From: a virus
Length of the DNA: 24,191 nt
IMG/VR virus record: IMGVR_UViG_3300048591_000011
Coordinates: 1 to 24,191 of that record
Reading direction: 5' to 3' (one strand)
Below are positions 4,274 to 18,825 of the stretch, one piece after another. The translations under genes were made by a program, and so were the position numbers. The notes under the pieces were generated by a model that saw nothing but the letters and a program-made list of their open reading frames with translations, searched no databases and was not told the DNA's origin. The stretch's first letter is position 1, and each line of letters begins with the position of its first letter.

Positions 4274-6685
4274 TTAGAACAACCAATCAAAGAATGAGCT
4301 AGCACCTTGTCCAACGATAGAACCAATAAGACTACCAGTACCAGCACTGTCGGCAGCATCACTTTGTAACTGCGCTTGTAGACGAGTTACAGCGATAGCA
4401 TTTCTTCTATTAGCTTCATTCTCTGTGGACTGCCACAGGTAACCAAGCATATTATCTGAACGATCCCAAATCTGATTTAGTTGTTCAGTAGAAAGACCAA
4501 CCATGTTCTTTACATCGGTAGCAGCAGCTTCAAAGGCTTGTTGATTCTCAGTGAGAGTAACTGTCTGACGCCACTTAGCGTTAGAAACGTCAATGTTATA
4601 CTGCATATTTCTATAGAACTGTTCTCTTTGGTTTTCAAGACCAGCATTGAACTGAGCCATTTGATTACGCTCAGAAGCATTGAAACGTCCTTGAGCATTA
4701 GCCTCAGAGACATTTAAACCAGTCATGTCATTGCTCTCAGAGGCATTAAACCTATCTTGAGCATTGGCACTGTCGGCATTAAAGCGACTTTGCTGGTTTG
4801 CCTCAGTCATATTCAGTGCAGTCATATCATTAGTTTCGGCTGCATTAAATCTATTCTGAGCATTAGCTTCAGTGGTATTAAACCTAGACTGAGAGTTACT
4901 CTGATCTACATTGAATTGTGTCATCTGATTACGTTGAACAGTATTCAAGGCAGTCATGTCATTTCGTGCCTGAGCATTAAAACGAGCCTGAGAATTATAT
5001 TGGTCAGAGTTAAACTGACGCATATTGTTTATTTCAGAAACGTTAAATTGCTTCATGGTATTAGTCTGGTTTGCATTAAACTGACTAACCTGAGTACCTA
5101 ACTCATCGTAGAAACGATCCATCTCATTTTGAGACTGAGCAGTAAAAAGACGTTGAGCATTAATCTGCTTACCATCTTCAAACAGAGCTTGAACTCTATT
5201 CTGATTATTAATAACGGCAGCCTGTTGTCTGTTGTTCAGATTGGCTAAATCCATTTGTAGGAAAGCCTGAGAATTCTGAACAGCAGCAGCCAAACGAGCA
5301 TCCATATTCTGGGACTCTAATTTCGCAAGAACATTAGCCCTGTTAATCGTGGACTGTTGTTTGTTGTCCAAATTTTGTAGCGTTAGTGTTTGGAAGAACT
5401 GTGCATCTTGCTGAGCAATAGGAAGTGATGCTTCAAGGAGTGCCTGAGCCATAGCGGCAGTAGCAGCAGTTCCAGTCATACCAGAGAAACTGGCAATTCT
5501 GGAGACATTACGTGCAGTAGCCTGTGCCCAAGAAGGAATCTTGGGGTTACCCTGTGCATCAACAAACTGGCTTTGAAGAGCCTCAATTTGTCCTTGAAGA
5601 GTAGTCTTAGGGTCAACTTCACTAGGGTCTAAGGAAGCGTGTTCCTTAAGGGCTTCGCCTGCAATACTTTGATCAAACGTTTGCATGTCAGTAGTGACAG
5701 CATTAGGATCAATCTGAGCACCTTGACTTACAGTACCTTGAGCAGCAGTCATATCCTGAGCAGCTACATCACCATAAATCTCATGGGCCTGATAAGTATT
5801 GGTTGCACCCTGTTGGGCAGCTTGTGCTTGTGCAGCAGGACCAGTCGTAGCGGCAGTAGCCGTAGAGGTAGCCGCAGTAGTGGCTTGACCTGTAGCAGTC
5901 TGACCTTGAGCAGTTGTAGCAGCAGTGGTGTCAGCATTCGCAGCAGTACCCTGTGCAGTATCAGCAACAGTAGTGTTTGCTAAAGCCGTGTCACCTTGAG
6001 CCGTGCCAGTAATACTCACATTAGCGTTAGTACCACTAGGGTCCATAGGATCGGCAGGAGCAATATTAGTACCTTCGGCATTAGGGTCAATACCCGGAAG
6101 GTTCTCAGACAATTGCATATCGTCATTGAAGAAAGTACCTGGATCAGTAACTAATTGACCAGCATAATCCACAACGTTGGTTTGCCCCGGAATATCAGGA
6201 TCAGGAGTACCCGGAACTACCTGAGTAGTTTGAGTAGGATCATTTGGTAGAACAGGCGTGGGAGTAGGGGTCGGAGTGGGAGTAGGCGTTGGTGTAGGAG
6301 TCGGGGTGGGAGTAGGTTGACCGGGCTGAGAACCCCAACCAGTATCACCTTCACCGGGGGGATTATCAGTTTGGCCCCAGCCACCCATATCCATACCACC
6401 CCAGCCACCTCCACCACCACCTTGGCCGTCATTGGGGCTAATACCACCATTGTTAGGGCTTACAGGATTGGTAGGTTTATCAAAAGTAGCAGTGGGACCT
6501 CTGACCTCACCATTAACCGTAGGGTTGATAAAACGAGGATCAGGGTTCGGATTGGGAACAGGAACTGGTTGATCAGGGGCTACATTACCACGAGCAATAG
6601 CTTGATCTCTGGAGGCTTGATACACATTTCTAAGAGTTTGGGGTAAAGCCATCCATTCATTGTAAGGAAGTAAAGAATAATCCAT
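4274..6685 (-). CDS. Large repeat-rich putative virion protein with 11-residue repeats (803 aa)
   Basis: The protein has clear zones. Residues 35-120 are Pro/Asn/Gly-rich. Residues 124-144 are a Thr-Pro dipeptide run. Residues 220-290 are Ala/Thr/Gln-rich low complexity. Residues 400-530 are Gln/Asn-rich helix. Residues 535-699 are 15 consecutive 11-residue units of the type (Q/R/A/G)(F/L)N....N.(M/Q)., with no insertion or deletion. Residues 700-770 are helical, and the C-terminus is Gly/Ser-rich ending in the hydrophobic SSFFDWLF. An 11-residue period suits a long, slightly right-handed coiled coil or helical bundle. It lies just after the lysis genes and before other likely ejection proteins, so a core, ejection-conduit or fibre role is plausible. 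A specific function cannot be read from the sequence. Confidence 0.7.
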   Translation of the reverse strand: MDYSLLPYNEWMALPQTLRNVYQASRDQAIARGNVAPDQPVPVPNPNPDPRFINPTVNGEVRGPTATFDKPTNPVSPNNGGISPNDGQGGGGGGWGGMDMGGWGQTDNPPGEGDTGWGSQPGQPTPTPTPTPTPTPTPTPTPTPVLPNDPTQTTQVVPGTPDPDIPGQTNVVDYAGQLVTDPGTFFNDDMQLSENLPGIDPNAEGTNIAPADPMDPSGTNANVSITGTAQGDTALANTTVADTAQGTAANADTTAATTAQGQTATGQATTAATSTATAATTGPAAQAQAAQQGATNTYQAHEIYGDVAAQDMTAAQGTVSQGAQIDPNAVTTDMQTFDQSIAGEALKEHASLDPSEVDPKTTLQGQIEALQSQFVDAQGNPKIPSWAQATARNVSRIASFSGMTGTAATAAMAQALLEASLPIAQQDAQFFQTLTLQNLDNKQQSTINRANVLAKLESQNMDARLAAAVQNSQAFLQMDLANLNNRQQAAVINNQNRVQALFEDGKQINAQRLFTAQSQNEMDRFYDELGTQVSQFNANQTNTMKQFNVSEINNMRQFNSDQYNSQARFNAQARNDMTALNTVQRNQMTQFNVDQSNSQSRFNTTEANAQNRFNAAETNDMTALNMTEANQQSRFNADSANAQDRFNASESNDMTGLNVSEANAQGRFNASERNQMAQFNAGLENQREQFYRNMQYNIDVSNAKWRQTVTLTENQQAFEAAATDVKNMVGLSTEQLNQIWDRSDNMLGYLWQSTENEANRRNAIAVTRLQAQLQSDAADSAGTGSLIGSIVGQGASSFFDWLF
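4589..5083 (-). repeat. Coding array of 15 tandem 33-bp (11-residue) repeats
   Basis: These are residues 535-699 of the 803-aa protein. Units begin at residues 535, 546, 557, 568, 579, 590, 601, 612, 623, 634, 645, 656, 667, 678 and 689, each with F or L at unit position 2 and Asn at position 3 in nearly all, and Asn at position 8 in most. NDMT followed by ALN or GLN recurs at unit starts 579, 623 and 656, which suggests duplications of multi-unit blocks. Weaker 11-residue spacing may extend back to about residue 434. Confidence 0.9.
6254..6316 (-). repeat. Thr-Pro dipeptide run in the 803-aa protein
   Basis: About ten consecutive Pro-Thr pairs (residues 124-144). At DNA level the codons vary: CCT, CCC, CCG and CCA for Pro, and ACT, ACC, ACA and ACG for Thr. 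It is therefore not a clean DNA microsatellite. A stiff, extended linker is the likely physical role. Confidence 0.9.
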
Positions 6686-6687
6686 AT

Positions 6688-6873
6688 TTATTTCACCGTG
6701 AATAAGAGGGCATGGAATTTATCCCAAAGTGCCCATATTGTTAAAACACCACCACCTACAATCCAAATCCAATTAGATTTAAGTTTGTTTGTTAGTGTGT
6801 CATATGCGATACGTTCACTTGCGATTTTCTTTAGAGCTTCTAACTCTTTCTTGTCAAATTCTTCTTGGCTCAT
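6688..6873 (-). CDS. Small single-pass membrane protein in the lysis cluster (61 aa)
   Basis: The first 33 residues are charged and helical (MSQEEFDKKELEALKKIASE...). A hydrophobic helix follows at about 34-51 (NWIWIVGGGVLTIWALW), and the tail is short. The start overlaps the stop of the holin-like gene as ATGA, so the two are probably co-translated. A small protein with a soluble helix and one membrane segment next to a holin could be an accessory holin, antiholin or spanin-like factor. There is no lipobox and no paired outer-membrane lipoprotein is seen here, so spanin is not supported. Lysis involvement is inferred from location. Confidence 0.65.
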   Translation of the reverse strand: MSQEEFDKKELEALKKIASERIAYDTLTNKLKSNWIWIVGGGVLTIWALWDKFHALLFTVK

Positions 6874-7238
6874 TTGAATAACCCCTTTATTCCACTAGTA
6901 AAGAAGTAACCACCAAGACAAATCATCATCACACTATAAAGCTCAGGAGAAAGTGGATCAGTAGTGCCCAGTCCTAACATCTTATCCCAAACAACTAATT
7001 TGCAGTTGTAGAGAATAAAAGGTACAGACCAGCCGATACGAATCCATCGCTCATAGGGGTCACTCTGTGCAGCAAGTATTGTAGTTTTTCTAGCTTCGAG
7101 AGTGGCAATTCTCTCTTCTGCTGCAATACGTTCTTGTTCTGTTTGTGCATTAATCTTGGACTGGTATGCATTAGTTAAGTCCTTTGTGACTTGACCAAGG
7201 GCAGTCGTGAATAGTTTTCCTAAGATTGTCCATATCAT
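6870..7238 (-). CDS. Holin-like membrane protein, resembles the 3-TM GTA/phage holin family
   Basis: The 122 residues show an N-terminal amphipathic or hydrophobic helix (about 1-17), a charged coiled-coil stretch (25-55, Glu/Arg/Ala-rich), a hydrophobic helix (about 67-85, IGWSVPFILYNCKLVVW), a loop with LGLGTTDPLSPEL, and a last hydrophobic helix (about 100-117). The block from SDPYERWIR through KLVVWDK and the TDPLS loop matches my memory of the holin family first linked to gene transfer agent release. Such proteins permeabilise the inner membrane so that the endolysin reaches peptidoglycan. It lies two genes after the endolysin, with TAATG and ATGA overlaps on its two sides. Confidence 0.7.
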   Translation of the reverse strand: MIWTILGKLFTTALGQVTKDLTNAYQSKINAQTEQERIAAEERIATLEARKTTILAAQSDPYERWIRIGWSVPFILYNCKLVVWDKMLGLGTTDPLSPELYSVMMICLGGYFFTSGIKGLFK

Positions 7239-7412: not shown

Positions 7413-8555
7413 TTACTTACCTCCTAACAGTTTAAGTATGAGTAGTGTTAAAACGCTCATAAAGCCTCCTACAGGAGCTTCAGTTTTTTCTGGTACTTCC
7501 ACCTTCGGAACATCAGGAATCGTCTGTACGGGGCTTACAAGTAGGCTACCGTCCTTCTTCTTGATTTGTTCTAGGATGTAACTAGAATTCTTACCTTCTA
7601 GAGACCAAGACAGTGGATTACGTCTCTTCTGGTGCATGATAACACCAACAGCAAGACTATCACCACGAACAATCTGACCATCATAGAGAATAGCTAATTG
7701 TTTATATTCAGAACTCTTAGGATGAACACCATCCTTTTCCCATTGCTTAATGTGGTAAAGAGGAACACCTTTAGACTCTGCTACTTCTTTTACAACCTTA
7801 GAGACACCTTGAGTTTTAGCACCATTAGGATTAGGTAGTATAACTATAGGAGTTCTACCTCTGTTAATGGAATTCTCAAGAGCTTTCTCAAGAGGTTTTC
7901 TAACAACTTCTGGAGTTGCCCAATCGTTACTACCCATGGAGAGTAATTCAAAGAGTCCAACAGAAGGTTCAGAGGTTTCAATCACTGGAGTATTTGTGTT
8001 ATAACCACCAGCCTTAAGACCTTTCTCAAAAGTAAGAGCAATCTTACCAATTTGAGTAGCTTTATCTGTCCCGTTAACAATACGTCGGGCACCCACATAT
8101 TCTTTAAGGTCTTCTGCGTCTGACTCATCAATGTCATCAATGTAGTCATCTAAGTCTTTACCAGTGTATAGACCCTTCTCCATACCAACAAAGAGAGCAG
8201 GAAGAGCATATTCCCATTCGAGTAAAAGATCAGGATCATCCGTAAGATCAACACCAATCTCTTTACCCATCTTAATATAGTTATCTTCCCAAGTAGTTTG
8301 AATAAGCCCACGGCCATGCCAAGGGTAATACCTGAGATTCTTCTTTCTCCATGCCTCTGATAGCCAATAGGCTTCTACAACAGGATGCATAGTTTGAGCA
8401 GACTCCCACCAAGCAGTAGCAAGAATATACGCTAAGTCATTTATAGGAGTCTTTCTCTGAATGGCGTAATCAAGAACTTTTTCTAGACCCACAACGTTCT
8501 GAGTCGTGAGGTTCAGACTAGGACGAATAGAATCATAGAATTTTTGTTTGTTCAT
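7413..8555 (-). CDS. Endolysin: GH19-type muramidase domain plus SGNH-hydrolase-like domain with permuted motif order
   Basis: Residues 1-185 look like the glycoside hydrolase family 19 lysozyme/chitinase fold: WWESAQ with candidate catalytic Glu51, a second Glu61, and the family signature HGRGLIQTTWEDNY at 80-93. This domain would cut the glycan backbone of peptidoglycan. Residues 195-340 carry SGNH-hydrolase signatures in an unusual order: MGSNDW (208-211 is GSND), DGVHP (275-279), GDSLAVG (298-304), then a Gly in EGKNSS (321). SGNH enzymes are esterases or lipases using Ser, His and Asp; in phage lysins they could deacetylate wall or glycan. The C-terminus (363-379) is a short hydrophobic tail. 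It sits between the tail fibre and the membrane protein genes. GH19 is confident; SGNH assignment is good from motifs; activity is untested. Confidence 0.85.
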   Translation of the reverse strand: MNKQKFYDSIRPSLNLTTQNVVGLEKVLDYAIQRKTPINDLAYILATAWWESAQTMHPVVEAYWLSEAWRKKNLRYYPWHGRGLIQTTWEDNYIKMGKEIGVDLTDDPDLLLEWEYALPALFVGMEKGLYTGKDLDDYIDDIDESDAEDLKEYVGARRIVNGTDKATQIGKIALTFEKGLKAGGYNTNTPVIETSEPSVGLFELLSMGSNDWATPEVVRKPLEKALENSINRGRTPIVILPNPNGAKTQGVSKVVKEVAESKGVPLYHIKQWEKDGVHPKSSEYKQLAILYDGQIVRGDSLAVGVIMHQKRRNPLSWSLEGKNSSYILEQIKKKDGSLLVSPVQTIPDVPKVEVPEKTEAPVGGFMSVLTLLILKLLGGK

Positions 8556-14112: not shown

Positions 14113-14931
14113 TTATCGACCTGCACCTGTCAGATCATACTTGATTTTCCCTGCACGCATGGCTTCCATAATAGCAGCCTCTTTGCGTTCATATTCGCGA
14201 GGATTCATCTTATCGATCTGGGATTCACTGAATAACCATTCACCTTCTTCCGGATCAGGGGCAGTAGAAATTGTACGAGTTACACTCTCAGCAGCTTCAC
14301 GCTTACTGGGAGCAGGTTTGGATTCTTTCTTACCGATACCCATGTCTGCCTTATAAAGGTCAATAACACGAGAAGCAGCAATAGCATCCCATCCATTAAG
14401 AACATCCACCATCCATGCAGGCTGGCCTTCAACCCATTCCTTAAATTCAGGAGTAGGAAGAATTTTCTTAAAGAAGTCGGGGTGAAGCCTATTTAGTTCA
14501 GCAACAGCTTCATCCATTTTGATCTTGTTTTCAATCTCTTGAACCTTGTTAATACCAGTCTGGTACTTAGCCTCAAGTTCTTTATTGTTCTTTAAGATCA
14601 TAGTCTGGATATGGCCAAAGACATCAGGGTATTTTTTACCCCATGCTTCAACCTCTTCGAGAGTCTTGGGAAACTCAGGACCCTTAGGGGTACTAGCGAG
14701 TTTATTTTCAAGCTCTTGAATACGGGCATCTTTCTCAGAGAGCATCTGTTGGTTATACCTGCGAAGGTCACCATATCTCTTCTTGAAAGTCTCTTCCTCG
14801 TCTGCGGCCACCACAGGGGTAACTACTTGAGGTTTATCTTCCTCTTCGGGAATAGGTCTTACCTGATTTTCAAGCTCGACGATTTCTTGATCTTCCCGTT
14901 GAAGCCGTGCTTCATTTCTATATCTTGTCAT
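14113..14931 (-). CDS. Capsid scaffolding protein
   Basis: The 272-residue protein is highly charged and almost entirely helical. The N-terminus is Arg/Glu-rich, 30-50 is acidic (RPIPEEEDKPQ), and 50-85 is a coiled coil (FKKRYGDLRRYNQQML, then ARIQELENKL). Around 130-160 lies a second helix (IQEIENKIKMDEAVAELNRLHPDFFKKI), and the C-terminus is basic/helical. KRYGDLRR near the N-terminus is common in podovirus scaffolds I have seen. Position directly upstream of the coat gene agrees. Scaffolds direct procapsid assembly and leave before packaging. The start overlaps the stop of the 1226-aa gene as ATGA. Confidence 0.8.
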   Translation of the reverse strand: MTRYRNEARLQREDQEIVELENQVRPIPEEEDKPQVVTPVVAADEEETFKKRYGDLRRYNQQMLSEKDARIQELENKLASTPKGPEFPKTLEEVEAWGKKYPDVFGHIQTMILKNNKELEAKYQTGINKVQEIENKIKMDEAVAELNRLHPDFFKKILPTPEFKEWVEGQPAWMVDVLNGWDAIAASRVIDLYKADMGIGKKESKPAPSKREAAESVTRTISTAPDPEEGEWLFSESQIDKMNPREYERKEAAIMEAMRAGKIKYDLTGAGR

Positions 14932-17900
14932 ATATTCTCCTTCAGGGGTCGTTTCATAGAACGAGTTGCCTTAGATTTACCAATTAGACCACAGACATAT
15001 TCACCAATGTTACACATCTGACGGCCAATGAAATTAGATTTAGGTTCAACACCTATCCTGTAAGCCATTTCTGTTGCCCAACCTTTAACGAAGAAGAACA
15101 GGAACTTTTCAAGAATAGGATGCTTGTTTTGTTTTAAATAAGCCACTATGGGTTCAGCCCAGAGGCGATAGCCCTTAGAGGTATTATCTGAAATATACAT
15201 TGCTGCATATAACTGATCTGCGTGATAGAGTTTAGGATTAAGTTTTCCAGTCTCGAAGAAGTAAGTACAGAGAACTTTATCTCCGCCTCCACCACTTCCT
15301 CCACTGGCTCCTACGTGACCCATACCGGGTTCATTACCGTGGGCACTAGCTGCCGCAGCAGACATATTCCCACCGAAGCCTTGACTACTACCAGAACTAG
15401 AAGAACTAGAGCCAGAAGAACCACCACCTAAACCAGACAATCCCATACCAGTATAACCAGTAGTCATTGAGTGGGAGAAAGTAGAAGTCATATCATCATT
15501 AATTGATGGTGCTGTAATACCCGGAGGGGCTGGTGCAAGACCAGGGGCAGGAGCAACTTTACCATCTGTTCCAAGAACACCTTCGTTCGTGGGAGAAGAG
15601 TAATTACCCAAACCACCGGGACTAAATCCAGGACTTGCAGTTGCAGCGTTGGGGGAACCAAGACCAGTTCCCATACCAGAGGCAGTGCCTCCTAGAGAAC
15701 CAGCACTAGTGCCACCAAAAGATGCTTCAGCAGATTGTTGTGCCGCAGCCGAACCGGGTCCTACAGCAGAACCACCGGAGAAGCTATCAACACCTGCAAG
15801 ACCCTGATCACCAAAACCAGAACCCATTGCATCACTGAAAGCACCAGTAGTACCACCATCACCCGGACCAGCAGAGACTCCAGAAAAGCCTACACCTGCT
15901 GTGCCTGAACCAGAAGAACCAACTCCCGAAGAAGCCGAACCTGATCCAGATAATCCTACACCACTAAAATCAGAAGAGCCAAAACCGACACCACTAACTC
16001 CAGATGTGCCTGAAATACCACCAGAAAAACTTACATCTGATACAGAAGTATTTCCAGTTGTAGAACTACCTATTCCTAAACCAGAACCAATAGCACCTGC
16101 TACAGCAGTTTGTGCGACAGAAGGTCTGCTACCAATTCCAGCCACGCTAACGGTAGAAGGAAGTCCTTGTGGGAAACCTGCTCTACCAGGACCTGGGGTA
16201 ATCTCCATAAAAGTATGTTCACCAACACTGGCTTTACTTGTGGGATCAGCCCAACTAGTCCAAGAAGGAGCTTTCTTCATGTATGAAGCGTGATAAGAAT
16301 TGGCATTAGGAGTTGGAGAAGGATTATCTCCAGTATAAAAACCCATAATAGCTTCTTCAATAAATTGACCAATAGATTTATAACTACTTCTAGTAGTCCC
16401 TAAATTACTAGTCATCAAAGAGTTATATTGACTCGGTGAAAGAACCTTAGCCATATCTCCACCATACGACGGAGAAGCTGCTCTGTTTTCCATTGTACTG
16501 ACGATAGCAGCAATTTCTTGTCTGGCAGTGGCAACAGCATCAGGATCACCTGATCTAATTGCAGCATTAGTCTTAGAGCCGAGTTCCCCTGCGATGGTCA
16601 AAGCCATTGCTTGAATTTCTTCAGGACTTCTCGGAGTTCTTGCCAAAGGATCAGTAACATCTACTCTATCCCTAGAGGGAGATGCACTAGAAAGTCCACT
16701 AGATAATGAATCAGTTACAGCATCTTCAGTGACTTGTTGAGCAATAGATTTTCTACCACCACCTTCAGCACTAAGCATACCAGTAGCTTCAACTTGAGTA
16801 CTATTAGGACCAGGATTTTTACTGGGAGTGGGAATACCACCTTGACTAAAAGCATCTGGAAGCCCATAACTTCGATTTTCTGCAATTTTACTTTCTAGAG
16901 CATTCCCAACTTTACCCCAACCTAATTGTGATGTTGAAGCATTTGGTTGAGCGACGTCGGCATGAATGGAAGTTCCACCCATATAGCCACCTGGTTTGTC
17001 TAAACCAAGTCCAGTAATACCAAGACCAACAAGTTGTTCTGCTACTTTGCCAAGGGATTCTGGATCAGTAACCCTAGAGCCATTAGGACCTACAACATAA
17101 AAATCAGCAGCCTTACCTGTAGTATGTCTAGTAGTGCCAATTTGTCCAGCTTTTCTTGAAGCGTATTTATCTAGTGCTTTGCCAGAAAGACCTTTGGCTT
17201 TACCTTCTTCACGAGCAGCATTGATAGCAGCCACTTGTTCTGGAGAATAAGTACCAGAACTTACAACACCTGTAAATCCTTGGCCGAGAGCTTGGTCCAC
17301 TGCCTGTTCAATAACCGACATAAGACGACTATCAGGGGCAACACCACGACCTTTACCTGATAAATCAGTTTTTGCAGAGGGTTGACCAGTGAGATTACCA
17401 AGACCAGCTTGTGGATCAATACTTCTATTACTAGCAGCAGCAGTTCCGGCGGTGGCAACACCAATACCAGTTTGACCTGCAACATTTCCTGCTATACCAC
17501 TACCAACACCAGTGACACCTTGTCCAGCGGCACCAGAACCAGCTTGTCCTGTAACACCACCCGTCACACTAGGCGCTCTAGAAGGTGCAGGAGCACCAAC
17601 AGGACCTGTTAGACCACCAATAGTATTAATACTAGGGGCAGTTGCAGGAGCCTCTACAGAAGGGGCTGTGACACTAGGGGCAGTTACAGGAACTGGTGTT
17701 GCGAGAGGACTAGGTACATCTTTAAAGGGAGATTTAATTTTTCCTAAATCAATACCAGTAGCTTGTTCAACAACATCTTTTACAGTTTCAGCAACTTTAC
17801 CAAGAATACCAGTAGCTTGTTTTCCATACTCAGCAGCGTGCGCAACTTCAGCAGCTTCTTTAGCTTCAGGAGAAACTTCACTAACTTCAACACCTTTGGC

Positions 17901-18608
17901 TTGAGCACGAGAGGCTGCTTCTTCTGGAGTCATAGTAGTACGACCACTTGCAGTAGAAGCCTCAAGTCCGATAGCTACTTGCTGACCACCAATGTCAACT
18001 TCCGCCACCACACCATGTTGATCTTGAGCAATACTTTTAATAGTATCTTTGGGACCAAGGGAAGGAAGACCAAGAAAACCACGAGCAGCATTTACTGCCT
18101 GAGTATTATTAGCATTGATAGCAGCGTTAATTGCTTTGCCAATCATTCCAGGCATACCAGGGACTGCACTAAGTAATCCCATCACTGCTGGTTTATTAGC
18201 ATAACCAAAGTTGTTTGAAGGGTTTCTATCCATGGCCTCTCGACCAGTTTCATTATCTGGAGAACCGTTTCGTTTGATCCAATTATCTTCAGGGATAATT
18301 TCTTCTTCTGTGCCCTCTTCAGTATTTTCTTCATCAGAAGGATCAGTCAAAGAGTCAGGAAGAAAACCACTATGAGGAAAGTTCTTTAGAGCATCAAGTC
18401 CATGGGGCATACCCTCAGCAGCGGAAAGCCCATGGGGCATATCCGTAGTAGGATAATGAGGCATATTCTCGTTAGAGGGAGAGTAGTTAGTATCTTTTAA
18501 AGTATAACCAGCAAGTGAACTAATCGGATCACCAGTAGCGGCGTCTACATAGACCACACGGATTTTACCGTTTATCTTTTTGATGCGTCTAATAGCAACT
18601 CTCGCCAT
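14928..18608 (-). CDS. Large putative virion-associated wall hydrolase with M15 peptidase-like and SleB-like domains (1226 aa)
   Basis: I start at 18608 (MARVAIRRIKKINGK): a GAAGG ribosome binding site lies 8 bases before it and it is 1 base past the upstream stop, whereas the longer reading overlaps that gene by 36 bases. In this numbering, residues 410-560 carry the Zn-peptidase M15 pattern HTTGKAAD (His495, Asp502) and IHADV (His549). Residues 660-800 match the SleB/CwlJ-type hydrolase pattern: candidate catalytic Glu675 in AGELGS, MENRA, VLSPSQY, then YHASY, APSW and VGEHTF. Residues 850-1110 are Ser/Gly-rich low complexity. Residues 1113-1226 are a separate C-terminal module (CTYFFETGKL..., GYRLWAEPIV, WATEMAYRIG). 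It lies between portal and scaffold, so it is probably a virion protein that opens peptidoglycan at entry, though a lysis role is possible. Confidence 0.75.
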   Translation of the reverse strand: MARVAIRRIKKINGKIRVVYVDAATGDPISSLAGYTLKDTNYSPSNENMPHYPTTDMPHGLSAAEGMPHGLDALKNFPHSGFLPDSLTDPSDEENTEEGTEEEIIPEDNWIKRNGSPDNETGREAMDRNPSNNFGYANKPAVMGLLSAVPGMPGMIGKAINAAINANNTQAVNAARGFLGLPSLGPKDTIKSIAQDQHGVVAEVDIGGQQVAIGLEASTASGRTTMTPEEAASRAQAKGVEVSEVSPEAKEAAEVAHAAEYGKQATGILGKVAETVKDVVEQATGIDLGKIKSPFKDVPSPLATPVPVTAPSVTAPSVEAPATAPSINTIGGLTGPVGAPAPSRAPSVTGGVTGQAGSGAAGQGVTGVGSGIAGNVAGQTGIGVATAGTAAASNRSIDPQAGLGNLTGQPSAKTDLSGKGRGVAPDSRLMSVIEQAVDQALGQGFTGVVSSGTYSPEQVAAINAAREEGKAKGLSGKALDKYASRKAGQIGTTRHTTGKAADFYVVGPNGSRVTDPESLGKVAEQLVGLGITGLGLDKPGGYMGGTSIHADVAQPNASTSQLGWGKVGNALESKIAENRSYGLPDAFSQGGIPTPSKNPGPNSTQVEATGMLSAEGGGRKSIAQQVTEDAVTDSLSSGLSSASPSRDRVDVTDPLARTPRSPEEIQAMALTIAGELGSKTNAAIRSGDPDAVATARQEIAAIVSTMENRAASPSYGGDMAKVLSPSQYNSLMTSNLGTTRSSYKSIGQFIEEAIMGFYTGDNPSPTPNANSYHASYMKKAPSWTSWADPTSKASVGEHTFMEITPGPGRAGFPQGLPSTVSVAGIGSRPSVAQTAVAGAIGSGLGIGSSTTGNTSVSDVSFSGGISGTSGVSGVGFGSSDFSGVGLSGSGSASSGVGSSGSGTAGVGFSGVSAGPGDGGTTGAFSDAMGSGFGDQGLAGVDSFSGGSAVGPGSAAAQQSAEASFGGTSAGSLGGTASGMGTGLGSPNAATASPGFSPGGLGNYSSPTNEGVLGTDGKVAPAPGLAPAPPGITAPSINDDMTSTFSHSMTTGYTGMGLSGLGGGSSGSSSSSSGSSQGFGGNMSAAAASAHGNEPGMGHVGASGGSGGGGDKVLCTYFFETGKLNPKLYHADQLYAAMYISDNTSKGYRLWAEPIVAYLKQNKHPILEKFLFFFVKGWATEMAYRIGVEPKSNFIGRQMCNIGEYVCGLIGKSKATRSMKRPLKENI
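15270..16067 (-). repeat. Ser/Gly-rich low-complexity coding segment
   Basis: About 265 residues in the 1226-aa protein are dominated by Gly, Ser, Ala and Thr (for example SGVGFGSSDFSGVGLSGSG). There are many loosely repeated GVGFSG/GSGFG-like units but no strict period. It separates the SleB-like domain from the C-terminal module and is probably a flexible tether. Confidence 0.8.
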
Positions 18609-18609
18609 A

Positions 18610-18825
18610 TCAATTACCTTCAGCTTTTTGAATAACCTCTTCACGTAATGTTAAGAGTTTTCTGATTTCAGCAATTTGCCCTTGTATTTTATATATTGCT
18701 TCAATCTCTTTTGTATTCTCCAGTTGTTTGTGGAGAGTACTGATACGCGACATGGCATATTTTTCTAAGAGATCATTGTTATGGTTAACCAAAATAAGAA
18801 GTTCTTTGGCCAAGAGTTTATCCAT
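18610..18825 (-). CDS. Small helical protein of unknown function between portal and hydrolase genes (71 aa)
   Basis: The protein is predicted almost wholly helical from its leucine/charge pattern (LLAKELLILVNHNNDLLEKY, then LHKQLENTKEIEAIYKIQGQ), with heptad-like spacing that suits a coiled coil. It has no Cys and no membrane segment. Its start overlaps the portal stop as TAATG and its stop lies one base before the start of the 1226-aa protein, so all three are probably translated together. It could be a minor head protein or assembly factor. The function is unknown. Confidence 0.7.
   Translation of the reverse strand: MDKLLAKELLILVNHNNDLLEKYAMSRISTLHKQLENTKEIEAIYKIQGQIAEIRKLLTLREEVIQKAEGN

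Follow-up and report, generated by a model that had tools for sequence, protein, structure and literature searches.

The endolysin encoded in a 24,191-nucleotide stretch of viral DNA (the entire stretch analysed, called the window below) is best explained as a two-domain lysis enzyme: a GH19 domain is followed by a circularly permuted compact SGNH hydrolase (about residues 198-345), which we propose to be an esterase. We assign this reading a probability of roughly 0.7. The rearrangement itself is its firmest part, as the C-terminal domain is, judged by its sequence, almost certainly a circular permutation of a compact SGNH hydrolase that was cut between blocks II and III.

Domain layout of the endolysin

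The features of the gene are given below in window coordinates, with residues counted along the endolysin.

7413..8555, minus strand: endolysin ORF, 380 aa, with GH19 domain, permuted SGNH domain and hydrophobic C-terminal segment (ORF and motif positions)
8001..8555, minus strand: GH19 (chitinase/lysozyme-type) domain, residues 1-185 (profile matches and tblastn)
7686..7964, minus strand: SGNH half B, residues 198-290, canonical positions 48-126, blocks III to V (HMM, 38.8 bits; predicted fold)
7521..7685, minus strand: SGNH half A, residues 291-345, canonical positions about 4-41, blocks I to II (HMM and pairwise alignment)
7923..7934, minus strand: block III, GSND, residues 208-211, with Asn210 of the oxyanion hole (motif and HMM)
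7719..7733, minus strand: block V, DGVHP, residues 275-279, with Asp275 and His278 (motif and HMM)
7644..7664, minus strand: block I, GDSLAVG, residues 298-304, with the nucleophile Ser300 (motif and HMM)
7581..7595, minus strand: block II, GKNSS, residues 321-325, with Gly321 (aligns with the G-x-N/S-S conserved among canonical members)
7416..7472, minus strand: hydrophobic C-terminal segment, residues 362-380, GGFMSVLTLLILKLLGGK (peak of Kyte-Doolittle hydropathy in the protein)

By profile, the N-terminal domain belongs with the GH19 endolysins: it matches PHROG 181 (endolysin; E 1.8e-21) and, slightly under the gathering cut-off of 25.5, Pfam PF00182 (E 3.5e-5, 24.1 bits). GH19 sequences in the PDB, endolysins among them, were matched as well, and gp29 of Octadecabacter virus DB2 is 43-47% identical to the domain (43% by tblastn). 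For the residues after 185, nothing significant came from Pfam, PHROGs, NCBIfam or PDB sequences; Pfam PF00657 reached half B weakly (E 0.089) through the last part of its profile (82-205 of 208), where blocks III-V would be expected. At the C terminus, GGFMSVLTLLILKLLGGK forms a helix in a single-sequence AlphaFold2 model whose whole-protein pLDDT is only 39.5, and its hydrophobicity suggests that the tail may aid membrane contact or be membrane-active.

The sequence-only reading had placed GSND, DGVHP, GDSLAVG and Gly321 in a non-canonical order along this protein, and all four were confirmed at their positions in the 380-aa ORF, with ILPNPN at residues 239-244 and EGKNSS at residues 320-325. 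Motifs and HMM alignment also bear out its claim that every catalytic residue is present, as Ser300, Gly321, Asn210, Asp275 and His278 are all found. The blocks therefore run III-V-I-II (N-H-S-G), whereas the canonical SGNH order is I-II-III-V.

A large family of compact canonical SGNH proteins

Close relatives of the C-terminal domain or of the whole protein were absent from the viral and genome contigs, bar one GH19-only match, and from the phage collection. Relatives were reached with a generic compact-SGNH consensus, used as a query only, which led to natural canonical SGNH proteins of ~120 aa from phages as well as from plasmids of Sphingomonadales and Methylorubrum. A search with an alignment of these phage and plasmid members found the compact domain at at least 568 viral loci, of which 80 were read; the loci examined are canonical (I-II-III-V), and in 49 of 52 non-redundant viral members the domain starts no more than 45 residues from the start of the frame. 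These sequences make up a large, mostly unannotated family of ~125 aa in freshwater and marine phages and alphaproteobacterial plasmids (L115-L194, L010, L095-L106), and none of the members tested had a significant family in PHROGs or NCBIfam.

Exchanging the two halves restores a canonical SGNH domain

An HMM was built from 71 canonical sequences (57 viral and 14 from plasmids or phages), with the window sequence excluded. In its native order the domain matched this HMM in two pieces in swapped order, positions 48-126 (38.8 bits) and then 4-40 (8.7 bits), for 49.4 bits overall, whereas the reordered domain gave a single match over positions 4-126 at 53.1 bits. The best-domain score was thus raised by about 14 bits when half A was placed in front; with half A shuffled in the reordered construct it averaged 38.8 bits and reached at most 46.1, and 1000 full shuffles reached at most 5.1 bits. 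When the native stretch was rotated in 5-residue steps, the best-domain score was highest with the cut just before GDS, and a smaller HMM made only from plasmid and phage members showed the same two-piece and reordered behaviour.

The homology extends over the whole domain. After reordering it aligned end to end with the canonical member L157, with 45 of 146 columns identical (~31%), and the pairwise score was 131 for the reordered and 103 for the native sequence (shuffles: mean 29.5, maximum 50). Because the two native pieces cover the canonical positions once each, without overlap and with only about seven positions missing, at the new cut, we read the arrangement as a circular permutation. 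The proposal that the ends of an SGNH domain had been joined and reopened elsewhere thereby gains support beyond motif order, from whole-length homology to canonical SGNH proteins once the halves are exchanged.

No second permuted copy in the collections searched

Exact-motif DNA patterns were scanned against 2.9 million viral contigs and 85,000 prokaryote genomes, with the window's own and very near records left out; such scans need exact motifs, so diverged permutants could escape, and in the genomes the pattern covered just one of the two codons for Asp. Within these limits, there was no other copy of the III-V-I-II order with intact motifs in the collections searched, and no second in-frame DG[VI]HP-to-GDS arrangement in the viral contigs or the prokaryote genomes. 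The GAT form of the permuted pattern, which matches the window once, had 0 matches in the viral contigs; the GAC form had 2 in viral and 8 in genome contigs, none of them an in-frame permuted SGNH. A CATCC...GDS form picked out 115 stretches in the viral contigs, none of which is in-frame III-V-I-II by regular expression, and the HMM matches in these stretches were canonical, apart from weak sub-threshold ones.

Predicted structure of the domain

The 150-residue domain was modelled with AlphaFold2 from an alignment of natural relatives, with 52 fragments for half B and 8 for half A, which gave a mean pLDDT of 70.7 and a pTM of 0.63. In the model, half B folds confidently as an SGNH half: over model residues 21-90, pLDDT is mostly 85-94. 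Across the GDS region (model residues 101-125) it stays below 50, at about 40, which is weak evidence either way given just 8 alignment rows for half A; the block II helix (model residues 129-139) is the only formed part of this half. The best PDB matches of the model are SGNH/GDSL enzymes (TesA, 4rsh, sialate O-acetylesterase and Axe2), many through their second halves. E. coli TesA is the top Foldseek match (E 1e-3, aligned over TesA 59-178), and 4rsh scored Z 7.8, in a range (Z 7-8) where matches can reflect a common arrangement. No AlgX-, AlgJ- or PatB1-type structure was among the 50 structure matches listed, which excludes nothing. We consider it probable that the permuted chain keeps the alpha/beta/alpha core, which would bring Ser300, Gly321, Asn210, Asp275 and His278 together in one site.

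The best viral structure match was A0A0E3G768, a 962-aa protein of Synechococcus phage ACG-2014d (E 2e-5, TM-score 0.60, 152 columns), for which gp010 of this phage (L310:9151-11973; 940 aa, annotated endolysin) is the best candidate among the stretches read. There is no usable sequence similarity between gp010 and the window. A segment of gp010, HVILTAGSKDF...GAYVIGDQAEEAG, would be consistent with a degenerate copy of the same block order; we treat this as a lead only. A virion 'endolysin' of cyanophage S-SSM4 (L311:2134-4563) has an alpha/beta segment, YAIMTYGTDQ...FGDK. The two segments may represent a degenerate SGNH-like domain in the order III-V-I, without Ser or His.

Source phage and genome setting

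The virus that carries the permuted-SGNH endolysin is a marine-type phage. Its terminase is ~62% identical to those of Roseobacter phages CRP-212, CRP-738 and CRP-3 and is related to that of Puniceispirillum phage HMO-2011, and SU10-type portal and adaptor families are also present in the 24.2-kb window, an IMG/VR virus record. Neither GH19 nor SGNH was seen at 80 capsid-gene loci of related phages, many of which are short stretches.

Other genes on the minus strand drew our attention. Directly after the endolysin, two small ORFs of 61 and 122 aa (6688-7238) contain hydrophobic stretches, which makes them candidate holin/spanin genes. The ORF at 4274-6685 encodes a protein of 803 aa in which a (PT)n run is accompanied by numerous FN..E.N.M..N/RFN-type repeats, without a Pfam match. 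A 1238-aa protein (14928-18644), in which Gly and Ser are very abundant, has a weak match to PF07486 (cell wall hydrolase) at residues 713-813 and an HTTGKAADF-like, peptidase-looking stretch; from these features, it is possibly a virion-associated peptidoglycan hydrolase.

A model for the permuted lysin, and its alternatives

How could the chain have been rewired? In SGNH enzymes, the last helix runs from the catalytic His back towards the start of the first strand, and a short loop such as LYDGQIV can therefore join the two. In the endolysin, this loop would connect the end of the canonical chain, which follows the DGVHP helix, to the GDS strand at its N terminus. The new opening would separate the helix that follows block II from the strand that runs into block III. 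From the known fold, both new ends should sit on a face remote from the active site. With the new ends there and the old ones near each other, the permutation is sterically reasonable. The arrangement may have arisen when a phage SGNH gene was duplicated in tandem and the outer halves were lost during fusion to a GH19 gene.

The SGNH domain is probably catalytically active, as its residues suggest. While the GH19 domain would cut the glycan strand of peptidoglycan, the SGNH domain would act as an esterase, most likely taking off ester-linked acyl groups that would otherwise block GH19. Its substrate might be acetyl groups on the cell wall, that is, O-acetyl on peptidoglycan or envelope glycans, although we offer this assignment tentatively. 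A broader reading, in which an active SGNH of a third topology (III-V-I-II) joined to GH19 is a bifunctional lysin and a recurring phage solution, including the degenerate cyanophage virion-lysin copies, seems rather doubtful to us.

The main rival accepts the permuted SGNH fold and takes catalysis to be lost, leaving a module by which the endolysin binds the cell wall or a glycan. Wall-binding domains occupy this position in many endolysins, AlphaFold2 folds the GDS region poorly, and gp010 of ACG-2014d (GSKD...GDQ), with a similar strand pattern but without Ser and His, suggests that catalysis can be lost. However, if the domain were purely structural, some of its catalytic residues should have been lost, whereas S, G, N, D and H are all kept here at ~31% identity to the nearest relatives, and we regard a binding module as unlikely.

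Two further alternatives question the permutation itself. A swapped order could come from a misassembly, or from two SGNH copies of which a decaying remnant is left, and the single known instance comes from a contig of an uncultivated virus, with no other permuted copy by the patterns used. Such an artefact is nevertheless very improbable: the frame is open through all 380 codons without a break and with sensible linkers on either side, GC stays at 0.38-0.44 along the gene, no other SGNH remnant lies within the 24.2-kb window, and the halves cover the canonical domain once each. It is more improbable still that GDSLAVG occurs by chance near the end of an otherwise unrelated C-terminal domain. 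This would fit the score of half A in native order, which is below usual significance (i-Evalue 0.074 in the window ORF search), but half A alone reaches 12.7 bits, against 5.3 for the best of 1000 shuffles of itself, and adds its ~14 bits once moved in front. Furthermore, the similarity to L157 is wider than the motif, as HQ.R past block I and the G.NS of block II are shared too. We thus retain the two-domain lysin with a permuted SGNH esterase as the preferred reading.

Comparison with known SGNH proteins and lysins

If this reading is true, the window holds a very small SGNH enzyme (~145 aa) that was circularly permuted in nature and has close unpermuted relatives, with a cut point undescribed for the SGNH superfamily in the papers found. 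With permuted and unpermuted pairs of this kind, one can test directly how plastic the fold is and by which route it was permuted. As part of a lysin, the fusion suggests a glycosidase that cooperates with an esterase clearing acyl groups. The domain also shows why profile libraries miss such proteins, as nothing significant was returned from Pfam, PHROGs or NCBIfam.

The nearest counterparts are the compact canonical SGNH proteins (such as L157, L177, L128 and L010), which share the core size of ~125 aa, homology over the full length once reordered, and the signatures GDSxAVG, GxNS, GSND, ILP and DGxHP...YK.LA. They differ in their I-II-III-V order and in being nearly all stand-alone short genes without a GH19 fusion, whereas the window domain is permuted and GH19-fused; most of them also have cysteines near block I and before block II (CLILGDS...PEC), which the window domain lacks. 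E. coli TesA and other GDSL esterases, the best structural matches of half B, likewise have the canonical order, at 175-200 aa and without a lysin fusion. Conversely, gp29 of Octadecabacter virus DB2 (197 aa) shares the GH19 domain and ends after it, without an SGNH domain.

The sequence-only reading did not regard the arrangement as an established endolysin architecture. No paper on a permuted SGNH in an endolysin, or on the SGNH order N-H-S-G, was found among the open-licence literature; permuted SGNH proteins as such are published, with another cut. AlgX, AlgJ, WssI and PatB1 are structurally intact, circularly permuted SGNH proteins of the order H-S-G-N (PMC9487903, PMC4148444, PMC10302187), and AlgX, AlgJ and PatB1 are a precedent that permuted SGNH enzymes can work. 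The catalytic residues of AlgX/AlgJ/WssI and of PatB1 (DHHW) are circularly permuted, as in the window domain, but their order is V-I-II-III (H-S-G-N/Y/D), and III-V-I-II thus represents another cut point. They also feature DxH or DHHW together with GTSYS or KDS, larger folds and an acetyltransferase function, whereas the window domain lacks these signatures and carries DGVHP and GDSLAVG instead.
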